DNA of 11,181 bases from Bryobacteraceae bacterium (lineage in GTDB: Bacteria > Acidobacteriota > Terriglobia > Bryobacterales > Bryobacteraceae): contig CANGVB010000056.1 in the NCBI GenBank assembly GCA_947456995.1, positions 1 to 11,181 of the forward strand. The letters are read 5' to 3'. A model generated the notes under the pieces. That model had not been told where the DNA came from. It saw only the letters and a list, made by a program, of their open reading frames with translations, and did not search any database. Positions 333 through 7,363 of the stretch are shown here, piece by piece. Made by a program: the position numbers and the translations under genes. Position 1 is the stretch's first letter. Every line of letters begins with the position of its first letter.

Positions 333-341
333 TGGTATTCT
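333..341 (+). promoter_or_regulatory. possible extended -10 promoter element for the his leader transcript
   Basis: TGGTATTCT matches the extended -10 form TGn-TATnnT and lies 8 bases before the leader ATG at 350. If used, transcription would begin at about 347-350, making the leader transcript nearly leaderless, which fits the absence of a Shine-Dalgarno sequence before that ATG. No good -35 sits at the right distance. TTGACC at 323-328 and TACAAT at 341-346 look like promoter hexamers but are only 12 bases apart, which is too close for a standard promoter. The assignment is tentative. Confidence 0.22.
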
Positions 342-349
342 ACAATTTC

Positions 350-424
350 ATGGCTTTTGGGCTGCATCACCACCGTCTCCATCACCATCTTCACCCTGTG
401 ATGCGGCCGGCCCATATGTTGTGA
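350..424 (+). CDS. hisL: histidine operon leader peptide (attenuator control peptide)
   Basis: This is a 24-codon frame from ATG at 350 to TGA at 422-424. Eight residues are histidine, and residues 6-15 read HHHRLHHHLH; the last His is residue 22. Such clustering of the codon for the operon's own product, just upstream of a terminator and the first his gene, is the hallmark of a leader peptide whose translation senses charged His-tRNA. The peptide itself probably has no function after synthesis. No Shine-Dalgarno sequence precedes the ATG, so it may be translated from a leaderless or near-leaderless mRNA. The frame is too short for ordinary gene callers. An overlapping 23-codon frame starting at ATG 330 has no His codons and is the less likely reading. 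The sequence has no clear resemblance to the E. coli HisL apart from the His run. Confidence 0.85.
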   Translation: MAFGLHHHRLHHHLHPVMRPAHML

Positions 425-483
425 TCTTTGCGATCTACTTCTCCTAAATTAGCCCGCCGCGCTGAACCTCAGCCAGGCGGGCT
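360..483 (+). promoter_or_regulatory. his transcription attenuator with competing hairpins
   Basis: Three mutually exclusive pairings are visible. Segment 1 (360-365, GGCTGC) can pair with segment 2 (403-408, GCGGCC), five Watson-Crick pairs and one G-U, looping out the His codons. Segment 2 (403-412, GCGGCCGGCC) can instead pair with segment 3 (451-460, AGCCCGCCGC) through eight pairs interrupted by one C-C mismatch, an antiterminator. Segment 3 also forms the 5' arm of the terminator with segment 4 (476-483). A ribosome stalled on His codons 6-13 would cover segment 1 and leave segment 2 free, favouring read-through. A ribosome reaching the stop at 422 would cover segment 2 and allow termination. 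The base pairing is read directly from the sequence; the mechanism follows the enterobacterial his/trp model and is inferred here. Confidence 0.75.
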
Positions 484-493
484 TTCTGTTTTT
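451..493 (+). terminator. intrinsic terminator of the his attenuator
   Basis: AGCCCGCC (451-458) pairs perfectly with GGCGGGCT (476-483). Inside it, after a 2x2 mismatch, GCTGA (461-465) pairs with TCAGC (469-473) around a three-base ACC loop. The stem is followed at once by a T-rich tract (TTTCTGTTTTT, 483-493). It ends 14 bases before the hisI start, so it must be bypassed for the operon to be transcribed. Confidence 0.9.
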
Positions 494-507: not shown

Positions 508-894
508 GTGTCTATCCCAAAACTCGACTACTCCAAACTCGACGGCCTCATCACCGCCGTCATCCAGGACTGGCAAACCCATCGCGTCCTCATGGTCGGA
601 TTCATGAACGAAGAAGCTTTCGCCAAAACCATCGAAACCGGCAAAGCTTGCTTCTACTCCCGCACCCGCAACAAGCTCTGGCTCAAGGGTGAATCCTCCG
701 GCCACTTCCTCGTTGTCAAAGAAATCCGCACCGATTGCGACTTTGACACCCTCCTCATCTTTGCCGAAGCCGTCGGCCCCGGCGTCTGCCACGAGGGCTA
801 CGAATCCTGCTTTGCCAAGCAGCTCAATCCAGACAACGAATTTGTCTACGTCGACACCAAGTCTTACAACCCCGAAGAGGTCTACAAACACTAG
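508..894 (+). CDS. hisI: phosphoribosyl-AMP cyclohydrolase
   Basis: The 128-residue protein hydrolyses the purine ring of phosphoribosyl-AMP, the third step of histidine synthesis, in the cytoplasm. Family signatures are clear: [12 protein letters not shown] at 27-38, [16 protein letters not shown] around 50-65, the metal-binding DCDFD at 76-80, and CHEGYESCF at 94-102. Cys77, Cys94 and Cys101 match the three zinc-ligand cysteines and the Asp residues of DCDFD the magnesium site. The length is that of a stand-alone cyclohydrolase; the HisE pyrophosphatase domain found in HisIE fusions is absent, and no hisE occurs in the window. Translation starts at GTG. It is the first structural gene of the operon, directly behind the attenuator terminator, and ends 2 bases before hisG. 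Confidence 0.96.
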
Positions 895-896
895 CC

Positions 897-1766
897 ATGA
901 AGCTCAAACTCGGTATTCCTAAAGGCTCGCTCGAGTCCGCCACCATCGACATTTTCCGTCGCGCCGGATTCCAGATCACAACCAGCTCCCGCAGCTACTT
1001 CCCCTCGATTGACGATCCAGAAATCGAGTGCATGCTCATCCGCGCGCAGGAGATGGCCCGCTACGTAGAAGACGGCATCCTCGACGCCGGCCTCACCGGC
1101 CGCGATTGGGTGGAAGAAAACAATTCTGACGTGGTCGCCGTCGCTGACTTGATCTACAGCCGCGCCAGCTTCTCCAAGGTCCGTTGGGTTCTCGCCGTCC
1201 CTGAGAATTCCACCATCAATTCCGTCAAAGACCTCCAGGGCAAAGTCATCGCAACAGAACTCGTCGGGGCCACCAAGCGCTACCTCGAGCGCAACGGCGT
1301 TACCGCCAAAGTCGAGTTCTCCTGGGGTGCCACCGAAGTCAAGCCCCCCATCCTCTGCGATGCCATCGTTGAAGTTACCGAAACCGGCAACTCCCTCCGC
1401 GCCAACAAGCTCCGCATCGTCGAAACCATCCTCGAATCCAACACCCAGCTCATCGCCAACAAAGCCTCGTACTCAGACCCCTGGAAGCAGCGCAAATTGG
1501 CCGACATGAAGCTCCTCCTCGATGGCGCAATCGCCGCCCTCGGCAAGGTCGGTCTCATCCTCAATGTGGAGAAGGTAAATCTCGACAAGGTCATCGCCGC
1601 CCTGCCTGCTCTCAAGACCCCCACCATCAGCCAGCTCTCCGATCCAGACTGGGTTGCCGTCCACACCATCCTCGACGAAACCACCGTCCGCACCATCATC
1701 CCCAGACTCAAAGAAGCCGGTGCCCAGGGCATCGTCGAATACCCCTTAAACAAGATCATCCTCTAA
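897..1766 (+). CDS. hisG: ATP phosphoribosyltransferase, long form
   Basis: The 289-residue enzyme joins ATP and PRPP to form phosphoribosyl-ATP, the committed first step of histidine synthesis. The N-terminal [21 protein letters not shown] (65-74), [11 protein letters not shown] (121-131) and the PRPP-binding stretch [14 protein letters not shown] (159-172) identify the family. Residues from about 215 to 289 form the C-terminal ACT-like regulatory domain (HisG_C), with the typical TPTISQL and [10 protein letters not shown] segments. This places it in the long HisG class, normally a hexamer inhibited by histidine through that domain, so the HisZ partner needed by short HisG is not expected. 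The enzyme should therefore be feedback-inhibited while the operon is also attenuated. Its TAA shares one base with the hisD ATG (TAATG). Confidence 0.97.
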
Positions 1767-3013
1767 TGGCAACCCTACGCATCCTTCCACGCACCAAGGC
1801 TTCAAGCCTGCTCAAGCGCCGCCAGGTTCAGATGGACGACGCAATCAAAGTGGTCGAACCCATCCTCGCCGCTGTCCAGAAAGATGGCGACAAGGCTCTG
1901 CTCGAATACGCCCGCAAATTCGATAACTTCGATCGCAAAACCCCGCGTGTCTCTGCCAAAGAATGTGAAGCCGCCGCCAAACAACTCGCCCCAGACTTCG
2001 TCAAGGCAGTCAAAACCGCAGCCGCCAACATTCGCAATTTCGCCAAGTTCCAGATCCCCAAACCCGCCTCGGTCGAAGTCGCGCCAGGCCTCAAACTCGG
2101 CTACCTTGTTCGGCCCCTCGACACTGTCGCCTGCTACATCCCCTCAGGCCGTTACCCACTGCCATCCACCCTACTGATGACCACCCAGCCCGCGCAAGTC
2201 GCCGGCGTCCCAAACATCTGTGTCACCAGCCCGCGCTTCGTGCCTGAGATCTTCGGCGCAGCGCATCTGCTGGGTGTCACAAACACCTTCCTCCTCGGTG
2301 GCGCACACGCCATCGCCGCCTTCGCCTTCGGCACCAAAACCGTCCCCAAGGCAGACCGCATCGTCGGCCCCGGTAACATCTACGTCGCCGCCGCCAAAAA
2401 GCTCCTCGCAGGCGACGTGGGCATCGACTTTGTCGCTGGCCCCACCGAGATCCTGATCATTGCCGACAAAGGCAACCCCCGCTGGATCGCCGCCGACATG
2501 CTCGCCCAGGCAGAACACGATACCGACGCCGCAGCGATCCTGCTCACCACTTCCACCAAGCTCGCCGAAGAAGTTGCCGCTGAAGTGGATCGTCAACTCG
2601 AAACCCTCAGCACCGCCGAAGTCGCCCGCGTCGCCCTCAAGCGCAACTCAGCCATCCTTTTGGTGGACACCTTAGAGGAAGCCTGCGAGCTATCCAATCG
2701 CTTCGCCCCCGAACACCTCTCGATCCCGAGCGACAAACTGCTCAAACACCTCAAGCACGCCGGTGGCATCTTCATCGGCGGCTATTCACCCGAGGCTGCC
2801 GGTGACTATGCCAGCGGACCCAATCACGTGCTCCCCACCAGCGGCGCTGCCCGCCTCCGCGGCGGCCTCTCCGCGGCAGACTACGTGAAGGTAATCACCA
2901 CCCAGCAGCTCAGTGAATCTGCCCTGGCCAAGCTCGCCCCCTCCATCACAACGCTAGCCCGCGCCGAAGGCCTCGAAGCCCACGCCCGATCTGTAGAGGA
3001 GCGCTTCCGCTAA
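1766..3013 (+). CDS. hisD: histidinol dehydrogenase
   Basis: This 415-residue zinc enzyme oxidises L-histidinol to L-histidine in two NAD-dependent steps, the last of the pathway. Visible landmarks are IPSGRYPLPSTLLMT (125-139), the long block KADRIVGPGNIYVAAAKK (195-212), GPTEILIIAD (225-234), AQAEHD (247-252), NRFAPEHLS (311-319), GDYASGPNHVLPTSG (346-360) and EGLEAHARSV (401-410). By comparison with the E. coli enzyme, Gln248, His251, Asp347 and His406 are the zinc ligands and Glu316-His317 the catalytic pair; all are present. The length is slightly short of the usual 430. The first glycine of the common PGGR motif is a serine (PSGR). It overlaps hisG and hisC by one base each, with a GAGGAG 11 bases before the hisC start inside its 3' end. 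Confidence 0.97.
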   Translation: MATLRILPRTKASSLLKRRQVQMDDAIKVVEPILAAVQKDGDKALLEYARKFDNFDRKTPRVSAKECEAAAKQLAPDFVKAVKTAAANIRNFAKFQIPKPASVEVAPGLKLGYLVRPLDTVACYIPSGRYPLPSTLLMTTQPAQVAGVPNICVTSPRFVPEIFGAAHLLGVTNTFLLGGAHAIAAFAFGTKTVPKADRIVGPGNIYVAAAKKLLAGDVGIDFVAGPTEILIIADKGNPRWIAADMLAQAEHDTDAAAILLTTSTKLAEEVAAEVDRQLETLSTAEVARVALKRNSAILLVDTLEEACELSNRFAPEHLSIPSDKLLKHLKHAGGIFIGGYSPEAAGDYASGPNHVLPTSGAARLRGGLSAADYVKVITTQQLSESALAKLAPSITTLARAEGLEAHARSVEERFR

Positions 3014-4086
3014 TGGAATTTCCCCGTCCCATCCCACGCCCTGCCATCGACAGGATGGCTGCCTATCACCCGCCCAGTGCAGGCCGGGCCGGTAAGCTCC
3101 GTCTGGACTTCAACGAGAACACTTCAGGCGCCAGCCCCAAGGTTCTCGCCAAGATCCAGGAAGTTCTCACCGCCGACGCCCTCACCGTCTATCCGGAATA
3201 CACCGAAGTCCTGCCCACTCTGGCTAGGTTCTTCGAAGTCGGCGAAGACGAACTGGTAATGACCAACGGCACAGACGAAGCCATTCAGGTGCTCATCAAC
3301 GCCTATGTCGATAACGACGATGACGTGCTGATCCTCACCCCCAGCTACGCCATGTACCGCTTCTATTCCGAAGTCGCAGGTGCCACCGTCCGCACTCTGC
3401 CTTACAAGAAGGACACTCTCAAATTCCCCCTCGATGAGCTCCTCGCCGCGATCCGTCCCGACACCAAGGCGATCCTCATCTCAAACCCCAACAATCCCAC
3501 CGGCACTGCCATCAAGCGCGACGGCATCGAGCGCATCCTCGACAAAGCCCCTCGCGCCGCTGTCCTGATCGACGAAGCTTACTTCGAGTTCTGCGGCATC
3601 ACCATGCTGCCTTACCTCAACGAATACCCGAACCTCTTCGTCAGCCGCACCTTCTCCAAGGTCTACGGCATGGCCGCCCTCCGCGTCGGCTGTCTCTTCT
3701 CCTGCTCAGACAACATGCAGGCCATCCACAAGTCGCACTCACCCTACTCGGTCAACTACCTCGCTGCAATCGCCGCCAAGGCTGCAGTCGAAGATACCGG
3801 ATTCCTCAAGTCCTTCGTTACTGAGGTGCTCGCCGCCCGCGAGGTTCTTACCGCCGGCCTTGAGAAACTAGGCGTTCCCTATGTCCCAACCCAGGCGAAC
3901 TTCGTCCTCATGCACATCGGGCCCCGCGCACAGGAAGTCTGCGACAAACTCAAGGTTGCCGGAATTCTCGTCCGTAACCGAAGCTATGAAATCCCTGGCT
4001 GCGTCCGTGTCACTGTAGGAACGCAGGATCAAACCCGCCGCTTCCTCGCCGCATTCGAACCCCTCTGGAAGGAAATCCAACGATGA
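3013..4086 (+). CDS. hisC: histidinol-phosphate aminotransferase
   Basis: The 357-residue PLP-dependent fold type I aminotransferase converts imidazole-acetol phosphate and glutamate to histidinol phosphate and 2-oxoglutarate. LDFNENTSGASPKV at 31-44 is the substrate-binding N-terminus, SNPNNPTGT lies at 157-165, the PLP-ring Asp is in IDEAYFEF (D187), and SRTFSKVYGMAALRVG (211-226) holds the PLP lysine Lys216 and Arg224. VRVTVGT (331-337) contains the carboxylate-binding Arg332. The length is normal for the family. The start ATG overlaps the hisD stop by one base, and the gene ends in an ATGA overlap with the following HAD phosphatase, consistent with coupled translation of consecutive pathway steps. 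Confidence 0.96.
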   Translation: MEFPRPIPRPAIDRMAAYHPPSAGRAGKLRLDFNENTSGASPKVLAKIQEVLTADALTVYPEYTEVLPTLARFFEVGEDELVMTNGTDEAIQVLINAYVDNDDDVLILTPSYAMYRFYSEVAGATVRTLPYKKDTLKFPLDELLAAIRPDTKAILISNPNNPTGTAIKRDGIERILDKAPRAAVLIDEAYFEFCGITMLPYLNEYPNLFVSRTFSKVYGMAALRVGCLFSCSDNMQAIHKSHSPYSVNYLAAIAAKAAVEDTGFLKSFVTEVLAAREVLTAGLEKLGVPYVPTQANFVLMHIGPRAQEVCDKLKVAGILVRNRSYEIPGCVRVTVGTQDQTRRFLAAFEPLWKEIQR

Positions 4087-4730
4087 GCAAACCCATGCTG
4101 GTTTTTGACATGGACGGTGTCCTCGTCGAAGTCAAAGAGTCCTATCGCGAATCGATCCGCGCTACGGTGCTTCACTTCACTGGCCGCTCGGTCGAGCATA
4201 GCCTCATCCAGCACTACAAGAATCAGGGCGGCTGGAACAACGACTGGAAGCTGTCGAAAGAACTCTGCAGCGTCTACGGCAAAGAGATCCCCTACGACAC
4301 CGTCGTTGAGGTCTTCAACCAGTATTTCTTCGGCCACAACGGAGTCCCCGGCCTGATCGAACGCGAGAAGTGGATCGACTCAACAGGCGTCCTCGCCCGG
4401 CTCAACGAGCGCTACGACTTCGCTGTCTTTACCGGCCGCTTGCACGAAGAAGCGCAGATCACCCTTCGCCGCTTCGCCACCCACCTCAATTGGGTCGCCG
4501 TGATCGGTGACGACAACGTGACACAATCCAAGCCGAACCCCGAGGGCCTCCTCAAGCTCATGGCCGATCACAATGTCGTCTACTACCTTGGCGACACCGT
4601 CGACGATGCCAAAGCCTCCAAGGCCGCCAAAGTCCCCTTCATTGCCATCACCGCCCCCGGAGGCAACTTCGCTGCCTTCAGCCCGGCTCACTTCATCGAC
4701 AACATCAACCAACTGGAGACCGTCCTCTAA
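4083..4730 (+). CDS. HAD-family phosphatase, probable histidinol-phosphatase
   Basis: The 215-residue protein is a haloacid dehalogenase-type hydrolase. Motif I is [10 protein letters not shown] with nucleophile Asp9 and acid/base Asp11; motif II is Thr117 in VFTGR; motif III is Lys150 in SKPNPEG; motif IV is GDTVDDAKA with Asp171 and Asp174/175. The region 20-90 forms a helical cap and includes the distinctive [13 protein letters not shown], which I recall from the TIGR01548-type HAD subgroup. It is unrelated to the PHP-type (HisK) and inositol-monophosphatase-type (HisN) histidinol phosphatases, and HisB here lacks the N-terminal phosphatase domain of E. coli HisB. Its place between hisC and hisB, with ATGA and TAATG overlaps and a good AAGGA 9 bases upstream, makes dephosphorylation of histidinol phosphate the likely role. 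The family call is firm, the substrate is inferred from context. Confidence 0.85.
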
Positions 4731-5317
4731 TGCGCACCGCCAAAATCGAACGCATCACCAAAGAAACCCAAATCCGCGGCAGCCTCAAGATTGAAGGCAA
4801 AGGCAAGTACACCATCTCCACCGGTGTCCGCTTCCTCGATCACATGCTCGAGCTCTTCACCCGCCACGGCGGCTTTGATCTCAACCTCGAAGCTACCGGC
4901 GACCTCGATGTCGATCAGCACCACACCGTCGAAGACGTGGGCATCGTCCTCGGCCAACTCTTCAGCCAGGCACTTGGCGATCGCAAAGGCATCAACCGCG
5001 CCGGCTACTTCGTGCAGACCATGGACGAAACCCTCGCCGTCACCGCCGTTGACCTCGGTGGCCGTCCTGCTCTCGTCTACAAAGACCTCGTCAAGGTGGT
5101 CCACGTTGGCGACTTGCAAACCGAACTCCTCCCTGACTTCTTCGATGGCTTCGTCACCCACGTTAAGGGCAACCTCCACGTCAAGGTTCTCTATGGCCGC
5201 TCCAACCACCACAAGATCGAAGCGATCTTCAAGTGCTGGGCTCGCTCGATGAAATACGCCTGCTCCAAAGACGTCCGAATGAAGGATCAACTCCCCTCCA
5301 CCAAGGAGCTTCTGTGA
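4730..5317 (+). CDS. hisB: imidazoleglycerol-phosphate dehydratase
   Basis: The 195-residue monofunctional enzyme removes water from imidazole-glycerol phosphate, step six of the pathway, using manganese. The duplicated metal motifs are present: [17 protein letters not shown] (35-51), [14 protein letters not shown] (62-75) and [15 protein letters not shown] (158-172), which supply the His and Glu ligands. TMDE at 97-100 replaces the more usual PMDE. The C-terminus reads LPSTKELL, where nearly all family members have PSTKG; this glycine change lies near the active-site tail. There is no fused phosphatase domain, as in most non-enteric bacteria. The start ATG overlaps the HAD stop (TAATG), and the stop overlaps the hisH GTG (GTGA). 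Confidence 0.97.
5303..5308 (+). promoter_or_regulatory. ribosome binding site of hisH
   Basis: A strong AAGGAG lies 5 bases before GTG 5314. It decides the hisH start in favour of this GTG rather than the ATG at 5233, which would add 27 residues with no family match inside hisB. Confidence 0.8.
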
Positions 5318-5910
5318 TCTCGATCATCGACTACGGGGCCGGTAACCTGCGCTCGGTGCAGAACACTCTCGCTGAGCTTGGGGCTAGCTATAAGCTCATC
5401 GATACCCCTGAGGCCGTCCTCGCTGCTGACAAACTCGTGCTGCCCGGTGTCGGGCACTTCGGCCAGCTCATGCAGTCTCTCGATGCCTTGAAACTCCGTC
5501 AGCCGATTCTCGAAAAGATCGCCGCCGGCAATCCCTTCTTCGGCATCTGCCTCGGCATGCAGGCCCTCTTTTCGGCCTCAGCCGAAGCTCCAGACCTTGA
5601 AGGTCTCAGCATCTACCCCGAGCGCATCGAGCGCTTCCCTGCCGGTGCCCGTGTCCCTCACATGGGTTGGAATTCACTCAATGCCCGCCCCGATTCAAAA
5701 CTGCTGAAAGGCTTAAACGAACCCATCTACGTCTACTTCGCCAACAGCTATTACGCGCCTCCCATCGAGGCCACCTCGGCTACCTGCGACTATCAACTCC
5801 CCTTCAGCGCCGTGCTCGAACGGGACAACATCTACGGAGTCCAGTTTCACCCCGAGAAGTCCGGCCCTACCGGCCTCAAGATCATGAGCAACTTCCTGGA
5901 GCTTGCCTGA
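5314..5910 (+). CDS. hisH: imidazole glycerol phosphate synthase, glutaminase subunit
   Basis: The 198-residue class I glutamine amidotransferase supplies ammonia from glutamine to HisF. The GTG start gives the typical N-terminus [25 protein letters not shown] (41-50) forms the oxyanion region, GICLGMQ (77-83) holds nucleophile Cys79, and VQFHPEKSG (176-184) provides His179 and Glu181 of the triad. VPHMGWN (114-120) is the conserved contact region with HisF. The common FVHSYY is FANSYY here, a change next to the active site seen in my reading but of unknown effect. It overlaps hisB by 4 bases and hisF by one base (TGATG), fitting the need for equal amounts of the two subunits. Confidence 0.96.
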
Positions 5911-6671
5911 TGCTAGCCAAAAGAATCATCCCCTGCCTCGATGTCACTGCCGGCCGCGTCGTCAAAGGCATCAACTTCGTCAACCTCCGCGATGCCGGAG
6001 ATCCAGTCGAGCTCTCGCAGCGCTACAACGAACAGGGCGCCGACGAAGTTGTCTTCCTCGACATCACGGCCAGCTCAGACGAGCGCAACACCATGGTCGA
6101 CGTGGTCTTCCGCACCGCTCAGCGTGTCTTCATCCCGCTCACAGTTGGTGGTGGAATCCGCGAAGTGCGCGATGCCCGCCGCATCCTCGTCTCGGGTGCC
6201 GACAAGGTTAGCGTCAACACCGCCGCTGTCCGCCGCCCCGAGCTGATCACAGAGCTGTCGAACGAGTTCGGCGCTCAAGCCGTTGTCCTCGCCATCGACG
6301 CCCGCCGCAAAGGCGACTCATGGTCGGTCCACACCAAGGGCGGCCGGGTCGATGAATCGATCGACGTCATCGAATGGGCCCAGCGCGGAGAAGCTCTTGG
6401 GGCAGGCGAGATCCTGCTCACTTCGATGGATACCGACGGAGTGCAGAAGGGCTTTGATTGCGCCCTCACCCGCGCCGTCAGCCGCGCCACACGCATCCCG
6501 GTGATTGCTTCCGGTGGCGGTGGCATCCCTGAACACTTCCTCGAAGTGCTGACCGATGGCGAAGCAGATGCCGCCCTCGCCGCCAGTATCTTCCACTATG
6601 GAACTTATACCGTCAACGACCTCAAAGAGTTCCTCGACAAGCACAATATCCCGGTAAGAAAGAACGCATGA
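5910..6671 (+). CDS. hisF: imidazole glycerol phosphate synthase, cyclase subunit
   Basis: The 253-residue (beta/alpha)8 barrel uses ammonia delivered by HisH to form imidazole-glycerol phosphate and AICAR. ATG 5910 gives the standard N-terminus [12 protein letters not shown] with catalytic Asp11; the second catalytic Asp130 is in [19 protein letters not shown] (23-34), VGGGIR (79-84), TSMDTDG (171-177) and SGGGG (201-205) are the phosphate-binding and loop motifs. A longer frame reaching back to 5667 lies inside hisH and is not needed. GGAG 8 bases upstream of the ATG supports this start. It overlaps hisH by one base and hisA by four (ATGA). The order H-F-A differs from the more usual H-A-F. 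Confidence 0.97.
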
Positions 6672-7363
6672 TCGTACCCTGCATCGACCTCATGGACGGC
6701 AAAGTCGTCCAACTCATCCAAGGCAAAGAGAAGGCCCTCGAAGGCGAAGAGCCACTCGTGATGCTGGCGAAATTCGCTGGCTTCCCCGAGATCCAGGTCA
6801 TCGACCTTGATGCCGCTCTCGGTCGCGGAGCCAACGACGACATCGTCGAGCTCCTCGCCGGCCGCGCCCGTTGCCGCGTCGGTGGTGGCGTACGTTCTCC
6901 CGAACGCGCCCAGACCCTCATCGATCAGGGTGCCGCCCAGGTGATCGTCGGCACTGCCGCCTTTACCCGCACCGGCATCAACGTCCCTCTGCTCGAATCG
7001 ATTGCCGCTCAGATCGGCAAAGAGAAGATCCTCATCGCCCTCGACTCCAAGTACGGCAAGATCGTCGTCAAGGGCTGGCAGGAGTCGACAGACCTCACTG
7101 CCGTTGAAGTCCTCAAGTCTCTTGAGCCCTACTGCGGCGGCTTCCTCTGCACCTATGTCGATAAAGAAGGCATGATGCAGGGCACAGACCTCGAATGGTT
7201 CCGCAGCCTCCGCGCCGCAACCACCCTGCCTATCACCGCCGCAGGTGGGATTAGGACTATCGAAGGTGTAAAATCCTTAATGTCGATGGGGATCCACTCG
7301 GCCATGGGAATGGCCATCTACACCGGCCACGTTAAGCTCGACGATTTACGCCAATTGCTCTAA
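6668..7363 (+). CDS. hisA: phosphoribosylformimino-5-aminoimidazole carboxamide ribotide isomerase, divergent form
   Basis: The 231-residue (beta/alpha)8 barrel catalyses the Amadori-type isomerisation of ProFAR to PRFAR, step four. [16 protein letters not shown] gives catalytic Asp7, and Asp126 in IALDSKYG is the second catalytic Asp. VGGGVRS (71-77) and AAGGIRT (191-197) bind the two phosphates. It is about ten residues shorter than standard HisA and differs in key places: the usual RDGTL.G loop after Thr162 reads KEGMMQG, and VKGWQES follows the second Asp. This recalls the WQ-containing eukaryotic-type HisA form, though I judge that from memory. Being within the operon with an ATGA overlap makes the function secure despite divergence. 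It is the last his gene; no clear intrinsic terminator follows. Confidence 0.9.

Follow-up and report, generated by a model that had tools for sequence, protein, structure and literature searches.

How is the histidine operon controlled in the organism that carries this stretch of DNA? The window (the whole 11,181-nucleotide stretch analysed) holds a run of his genes preceded by a very short, His-rich reading frame and a hairpin. The initial annotation read this leader as a classical ribosome-mediated attenuator and suspected an acidobacterial host. The host assignment held, as the closest named HisI records belong to Bryobacter sp. and to other Bryobacterales/Acidobacteria MAGs; the genome from which the window derives is 79% complete. 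As set out below, the region at 350-493 is very probably a ribosome-mediated transcription attenuator of the his operon. The parts on which this reading depends are as follows.

333 to 341, forward strand: putative extended -10 promoter element, TGGTATTCT, 8 nt from the leader ATG (from the sequence and relatives)
350 to 424, forward strand: His leader peptide cistron, 24 codons with 8 His (from the sequence and relatives)
352 to 370, forward strand: segment 1, with its partner at 398-412; candidate protector helix from folding, weak across relatives
365 to 394, forward strand: predicted regulatory His codons, seven of the eight (365-373, 380-388 and 392-394), from the sequence
403 to 411, forward strand: segment 2, the antiterminator 5' arm, within the last codons of the leader (from pairing, swap and covariation tests)
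451 to 460, forward strand: segment 3, comprising the terminator 5' arm (451-458) and the antiterminator 3' arm (452-460)
476 to 493, forward strand: segment 4, comprising the terminator 3' arm (476-483) and the T tract to 493
508 to 894, forward strand: hisI, the first structural gene, GTG start (NCBIfam NF000768, above cut-off)
897 to 7363, forward strand: hisG, hisD, hisC, a HAD-type hydrolase gene, hisB, hisH, hisF and hisA, in this order (NCBIfam; the hydrolase and hisA matches score below their curated cut-offs)

The HAD-type hydrolase gene between hisC and hisB (4083-4730; TIGR01548, below cut-off) possibly encodes the histidinol-phosphate phosphatase of the operon. The open frame at the start of the window, which ends at 310, matched no NCBIfam family.

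The leader frame can be read directly from the sequence (MAFGLHHHRLHHHLHPVMRPAHML, from the ATG at 350 to the TGA at 422-424). Its densest stretch reaches seven His per ten codons within 311-507, a density of which 5000 shuffles reach five at most. The distances given in the initial annotation were confirmed: 26 nt (425-450) separate the stop codon from a perfect 8-pair, GC-rich stem (AGCCCGCC at 451-458 with GGCGGGCT at 476-483), and 14 nt separate the end of the T tract from the hisI GTG, ahead of which AAGGA lies at 495-499. Attenuators of this type are recognized by a His-codon run ahead of a his operon and an intrinsic terminator in between, and both are present here. A simple terminator scan of positions 1-1500 did not list this terminator because its loop, at 17 nt, is longer than the scan's loop limit of 8.

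The alternative pairings were recovered with one small correction. Segments 2 and 3 form eight pairs and one C/C mismatch (408/455) between 403-411 and 452-460; the outermost positions of the originally claimed 403-412/451-460 pairing, 412 and 451, do not pair. The claimed 403-408/360-365 pairing is present within a longer helix in which 352-355 and 360-370 pair with 398-412. In the window, this 15-pair helix would compete with the antiterminator. Folding of 340-510 gave a minimum free energy of -54.3 kcal/mol (z -4.2), which was matched by 0 of 200 shuffles.

Relatives were compared in order to assess the conservation of these parts. HisI was present in 59 of the 61 genomes searched, and a script rule for a His-rich short frame was satisfied at 43 of the 60 HisI loci from those genomes. 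Together with 80 named loci these made 140, which were reduced by 17 near-duplicates to 123 non-redundant HisI upstream regions. The frame was found by the rule in 102 of the 123; 20 regions were without it, including one (L047) that displays a leader with a TTG start by eye, and one region was too short to judge. From 89 regions ahead of family matches to leuA, trpE or ilvB the same rule selected 3, and from 1200 shuffles of his regions it selected 52. A density of at least four His per ten codons was reached in 97/123 real regions as compared to 2/1200 shuffles. A terminator followed 97 of the 102 leaders by script, at a median of 27 nt past the stop codon. The five remaining leaders (L042, L046, L083, L110 and L119, of which at least L042 and L119 have a terminator by eye) are left out of the terminator, swap and ribosome-position counts (n = 97). 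Thus, the His codons and the hairpin are kept together, and the hairpin-only pattern that the initial annotation had named as evidence against its reading is not what relatives display.

Some loci depart from this pattern. In genus g32 of family f3 (L033, L034, L035, L037, L040 and L050), neither a rule-based His leader nor a terminator precedes hisI. At L030, a promoter-like motif and the terminator are retained and the leader frame is gone, as if deleted. As a separate point, three loci (L088, L103 and L139) come from MAGs titled Bordetella parapertussis, Acidimicrobiaceae and Thermodesulfobacteriaceae, with HisI proteins 60-65% identical to that of the window; these MAGs are probably misnamed.

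The leader cistron is probably leaderless, a point absent from the initial annotation. Of 102 leaders, 96 have a TANNNT hexamer 7-10 nt ahead of the start codon, as compared to 6.6 of 102 after shuffling, with a gap of 8 nt in 56 and of 9 nt in 32. An extended -10 is present in 75 of the 102 (0.47 in shuffled sequence), and the most frequent bases at -3, -2 and -1 relative to the ATG are T, T and C. Shine-Dalgarno-like words precede 8/102 leaders and 42/102 hisI starts, the latter count being generous because several start codons were allowed per gene. A promoter at such a spacing would leave few nucleotides of untranslated RNA. With the -10 element 8 nt from the ATG, the transcript should start at the ATG or 1-3 nt before it, and ribosomes would load onto a 5'-terminal AUG.

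This geometry was also seen in f8, another family of the window's class. Twenty of its 21 HisI-bearing genomes were read; all 20 have a His leader, and TTGAC and TANNNT stand at promoter spacing directly before the leader ATG in 20/20. Upstream of the ATG, the window and L002, its closest relative, have diverged save at the -10-like positions and the TTC, whereas their leaders are nearly identical. Among leaders outside families f1 and f8, a -10-like hexamer was found by script at 8-10 nt in 17/28. The leaderless appearance is absent from families f10 and f22, where the untranslated stretch is longer. For three genomes of Acidobacteria, the predicted share of leaderless genes is reported as 9.7-19.4% (PMC3160421).

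The attenuator could also operate as proposed from a transcript that starts further upstream, the -10-like motif then being something else. The f10 leaders L301 and L302, with a -10-like hexamer 21 nt upstream and AAGGAG before the ATG, would suit such an arrangement, as would a simple sigma-70 scan of positions 1-1500 of the window, which returned zero promoters and also missed the extended -10 at 333-341. The scan likewise gave no promoter in 424-508, where one would, according to the initial annotation, have counted against the attenuator. However, the 8-9 nt spacing peak, the extended -10, the rarity of SD-like words, the f8 promoter spacing and the selective sparing of the -10-like positions and TTC in L002 all argue against an upstream start, which we consider unlikely.

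The strongest evidence for the attenuator comes from the relationship between the leader tail and the terminator. The tail of each leader paired with the 5' arm of its own terminator better than the shuffled mean in 96 of 97 cases (z < -1.5 in 68; mean z -2.05), and this pairing begins, at the median, 21 nt ahead of the last base of the stop codon. When tails and arms were exchanged among the 97 leaders, own leader with own arm was 1.29 kcal/mol better than the row and column expectation (z -5.9), and the 64 diverse leaders gave a z of -4.6; in these swap tests on HisI leaders, 0 of 10000 permutations were as good. The terminator arm is nearly uniform among leaders of the window's family, so exchange tests carry more weight. 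Among 24 hand-picked leaders, drawn from several families with differing arms, the gain rose to 3.9 kcal/mol (z -7.3), with the own combination better in 22, although the stems of the f20 row (71 nt past the stop) and f30 row (69 nt) are possibly the wrong ones. This set had numbered 26 at the start; the f32 and f26 leaders were dropped, as they had no terminator by the rule.

Pair counts agree with the swap tests. The alignment, RNA model and pair counts used 56 of 65 diverse loci, the nine exclusions having been chosen by hand. In this MAFFT alignment, which was not fitted to structure, 71.5% of the 2:3 cells were paired as compared to at most 43% with the partner slid, and the terminator stem was paired in 98.7% of cells. 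The 2:3 covariation score was 0.146, as compared to 0.097 when shuffled and at most 0.096 when slid, although double changes were counted in 52 cells as compared to 50 after a slide of -3 columns. Because the arm of the terminator hardly varies in its core, the covariation rests on the arm edges and on differences between families. The initial annotation had named a lack of covariation in this pairing as grounds for refutation; by swap tests and pair counts, the 2:3 pairing coevolves.

The protector helix is a different matter. The 1:2 pairing is weakly above chance (mean z -1.25; below 0 in 75/88 and below -1.5 in 36/88), and as a general feature it is unsupported, being strong in the window and weak across relatives.

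The same comparison bears on the idea that the His-rich frame is a gene for a functional small protein, such as a metal-binding one, followed by a plain partial terminator. His-rich peptides can bind metals, and one is encoded in 102/123 upstream regions. But outside the window's genus the leader peptides have little in common except for the His run and, in many cases, an end rich in Arg and Ala, and this end is the RNA arm that pairs with the terminator. The conserved features of the leaders are the arms and the His run. Since the 3' end of the frame coevolves as RNA with the terminator, and since His-rich frames precede his genes of differing identity, a small-protein function in place of attenuation is very improbable.

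Folding was then performed with a ribosome placed on the RNA, which was masked to 12 nt past the first base of the A-site codon. At least five antiterminator pairs were predicted in 94/97 leaders with the ribosome at the first His codon, in 95/97 at a middle one and in 86/97 at the last, as compared to 15/97 with the ribosome at the stop codon. By prediction and comparison, then, antiterminator and terminator of these leaders are mutually exclusive, and a ribosome that has reached the stop codon keeps the antiterminator from forming, a further mark of attenuators. These folds suggest a simple sequence of events. RNA polymerase would begin at the leader ATG or right beside it, and a ribosome would follow on the nascent RNA. 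If charged tRNA-His is scarce, the ribosome would stall at the His codons and leave 403-411 free to pair with 452-460 before segment 4 is made, allowing read-through into hisI. If histidine is ample, the ribosome would reach the stop codon at 422 and cover segment 2, and the 451-458/476-483 terminator would form.

Two results qualify the word classical. Even when a ribosome is placed at the first His codon, the full-length optimum retains the terminator in 79/97 leaders; the order of synthesis must therefore decide the outcome, which makes the switch a kinetic one. In addition, the antiterminator is still predicted in 81/97 with no ribosome on the RNA; the 1:2 helix is therefore not a general protector, and for most relatives folding of RNA that is left untranslated does not predict termination. 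The attenuator reading itself stands, supported by the relatives, the terminator and the 2:3 coevolution.

Control of the terminator by a T-box, riboswitch or RNA-binding protein instead of a translating ribosome is the least probable account of all. Any such regulator would be compatible with a terminator that has a second fold, but the His run is conserved besides the arms and Rfam gave no T-box or riboswitch match (at gathering scores in the window, or up to E 10 in 250-700). Nothing in the whole window reached Rfam gathering scores, and the three matches up to E 10 in 250-700 were at chance level (best E 0.6). Neither the T-box model nor RF00514 His_leader, the check suggested by the initial annotation, was matched in either search. 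The leader would thus work like the His_leader family without being a member by sequence.

Judging from the loci read, the predicted device is widespread in the phylum, which the initial annotation had not noted. Outside the window's class, a His cluster was found in 13 of the 40 HisI upstream regions read; in about half of the remaining 27, another frame lies immediately ahead of hisI, which is therefore not the first gene. A covariance model of the leader, which holds only the seven terminator pairs, had matches in 80/217 genomes of the phylum at E <= 0.01. Twenty matched loci were read by eye, and these comprised 13 His leaders, five Ile- or Thr-rich leaders and two loci with none (L315 and L318). 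Weaker matches mostly proved not to be his leaders on reading: among 11 of 13 fetched loci, one was clear (L329), one doubtful (L328) and nine were not, including the second match in the window's own genome (L321); L327, which lay outside the fetched stretch, and L331 were left out. Among the family labels that were read, 20 included His leaders (f1-f4, f6-f8, f10, f11, f20, f22, f26, f29, f30, f32, f38, f49, f51, f63 and f72), that of f6 with three His only.

The first gene after the leader is not always hisI. It is hisG at L303, L305, L306, L307 and L329 (NCBIfam, above cut-off), and apparently hisD at L301 and L304 and a HisZ-like gene at L316; the last three score below their cut-offs because the genes are cut by the locus end. 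In family f22, two His-rich leaders in series, each with its own terminator, precede hisG at all four loci read by eye (L307, L308, L313 and L314; hisG checked with NCBIfam in L307 only). The end of the second leader of L307, CCCGGGTGA, is the exact complement of its terminator arm.

Leaders rich in other amino acids were also met. Ile/Val/Leu-rich frames precede ilvB in Bryobacteraceae-like genomes, five found by script among 30 loci scanned (L273, L277, L278, L280 and L283) and two by eye (L274 and L275). The five script leaders start approximately 250-340 nt ahead of the ilvB match, and the -10-like hexamer of the ilvB leaders lies 6-7 nt before the start. In family f28, an Ile-rich short frame and a terminator (by eye) stand before an ilvA-like threonine ammonia-lyase gene at L309-L312, its identity checked in L309 only, and at L317 a short frame with four consecutive Thr codons and a terminator (by eye) stands before an aspartokinase gene (partial, below cut-off). 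Upstream regions of leuA gave two script matches, neither with a terminator, and those of trpE gave zero.

We consider it slightly more likely than not that the his operon of Acidobacteriota was ancestrally controlled by a leaderless His-codon attenuator. This device would have stayed in place whichever gene came first (hisI, hisG, hisD or hisZ), doubled in one family, and been one instance of leader-peptide attenuation being used more broadly in the phylum (ilvB, ilvA and aspartokinase).

Attenuators with his leaders are known in Proteobacteria. Like the enteric his leader (RF00514), the leader described here has a short His-rich cistron and a terminator before the first his gene, and the position of the ribosome is predicted to select the fold; it differs in having no Rfam match, a probably leaderless start, a simple 1:2/2:3/3:4 scheme and a different phylum. 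In three Firmicutes lineages, his attenuators have been proposed (PMC9413887), likewise from comparison of his upstream regions and with three to five consecutive His codons, a terminator and an antiterminator; the available part of that paper concerns few species and mentions neither a leaderless start nor Acidobacteriota. A 5'-terminal start is shared by the ilvBNC attenuator of Corynebacterium glutamicum, in which transcription is reported to begin one nucleotide from the leader start codon and there is no ribosome binding site (PMC11857589), although that system responds to branched-chain amino acids and belongs to the Actinobacteria. Mycobacteria are reported to have leaderless poly-Cys short ORF attenuators (cited in PMC9031893), which also use a codon run as the sensor, but for cysteine.

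The mechanism, as predicted from sequence, is thus of an ordinary kind and is well supported by comparison. What appears to be new is the lineage, a his leader with a leaderless start, and the distribution across the phylum. The expectation of a little-described case is in line with a literature search in which none of the papers listed was seen to describe a his attenuator for Acidobacteria. According to a 2010 survey, almost no predicted Acidobacteria attenuator has an assigned function (PMC2965389), and the present analysis proposes one for attenuators in this phylum. It also supplies annotators with a sequence model and with numerous loci. Finally, it suggests that amino-acid attenuation through initiation at a 5'-terminal AUG occurs outside the Actinobacteria, and the pacing of ribosome and polymerase without an untranslated leader would thereby become testable in a second phylum.
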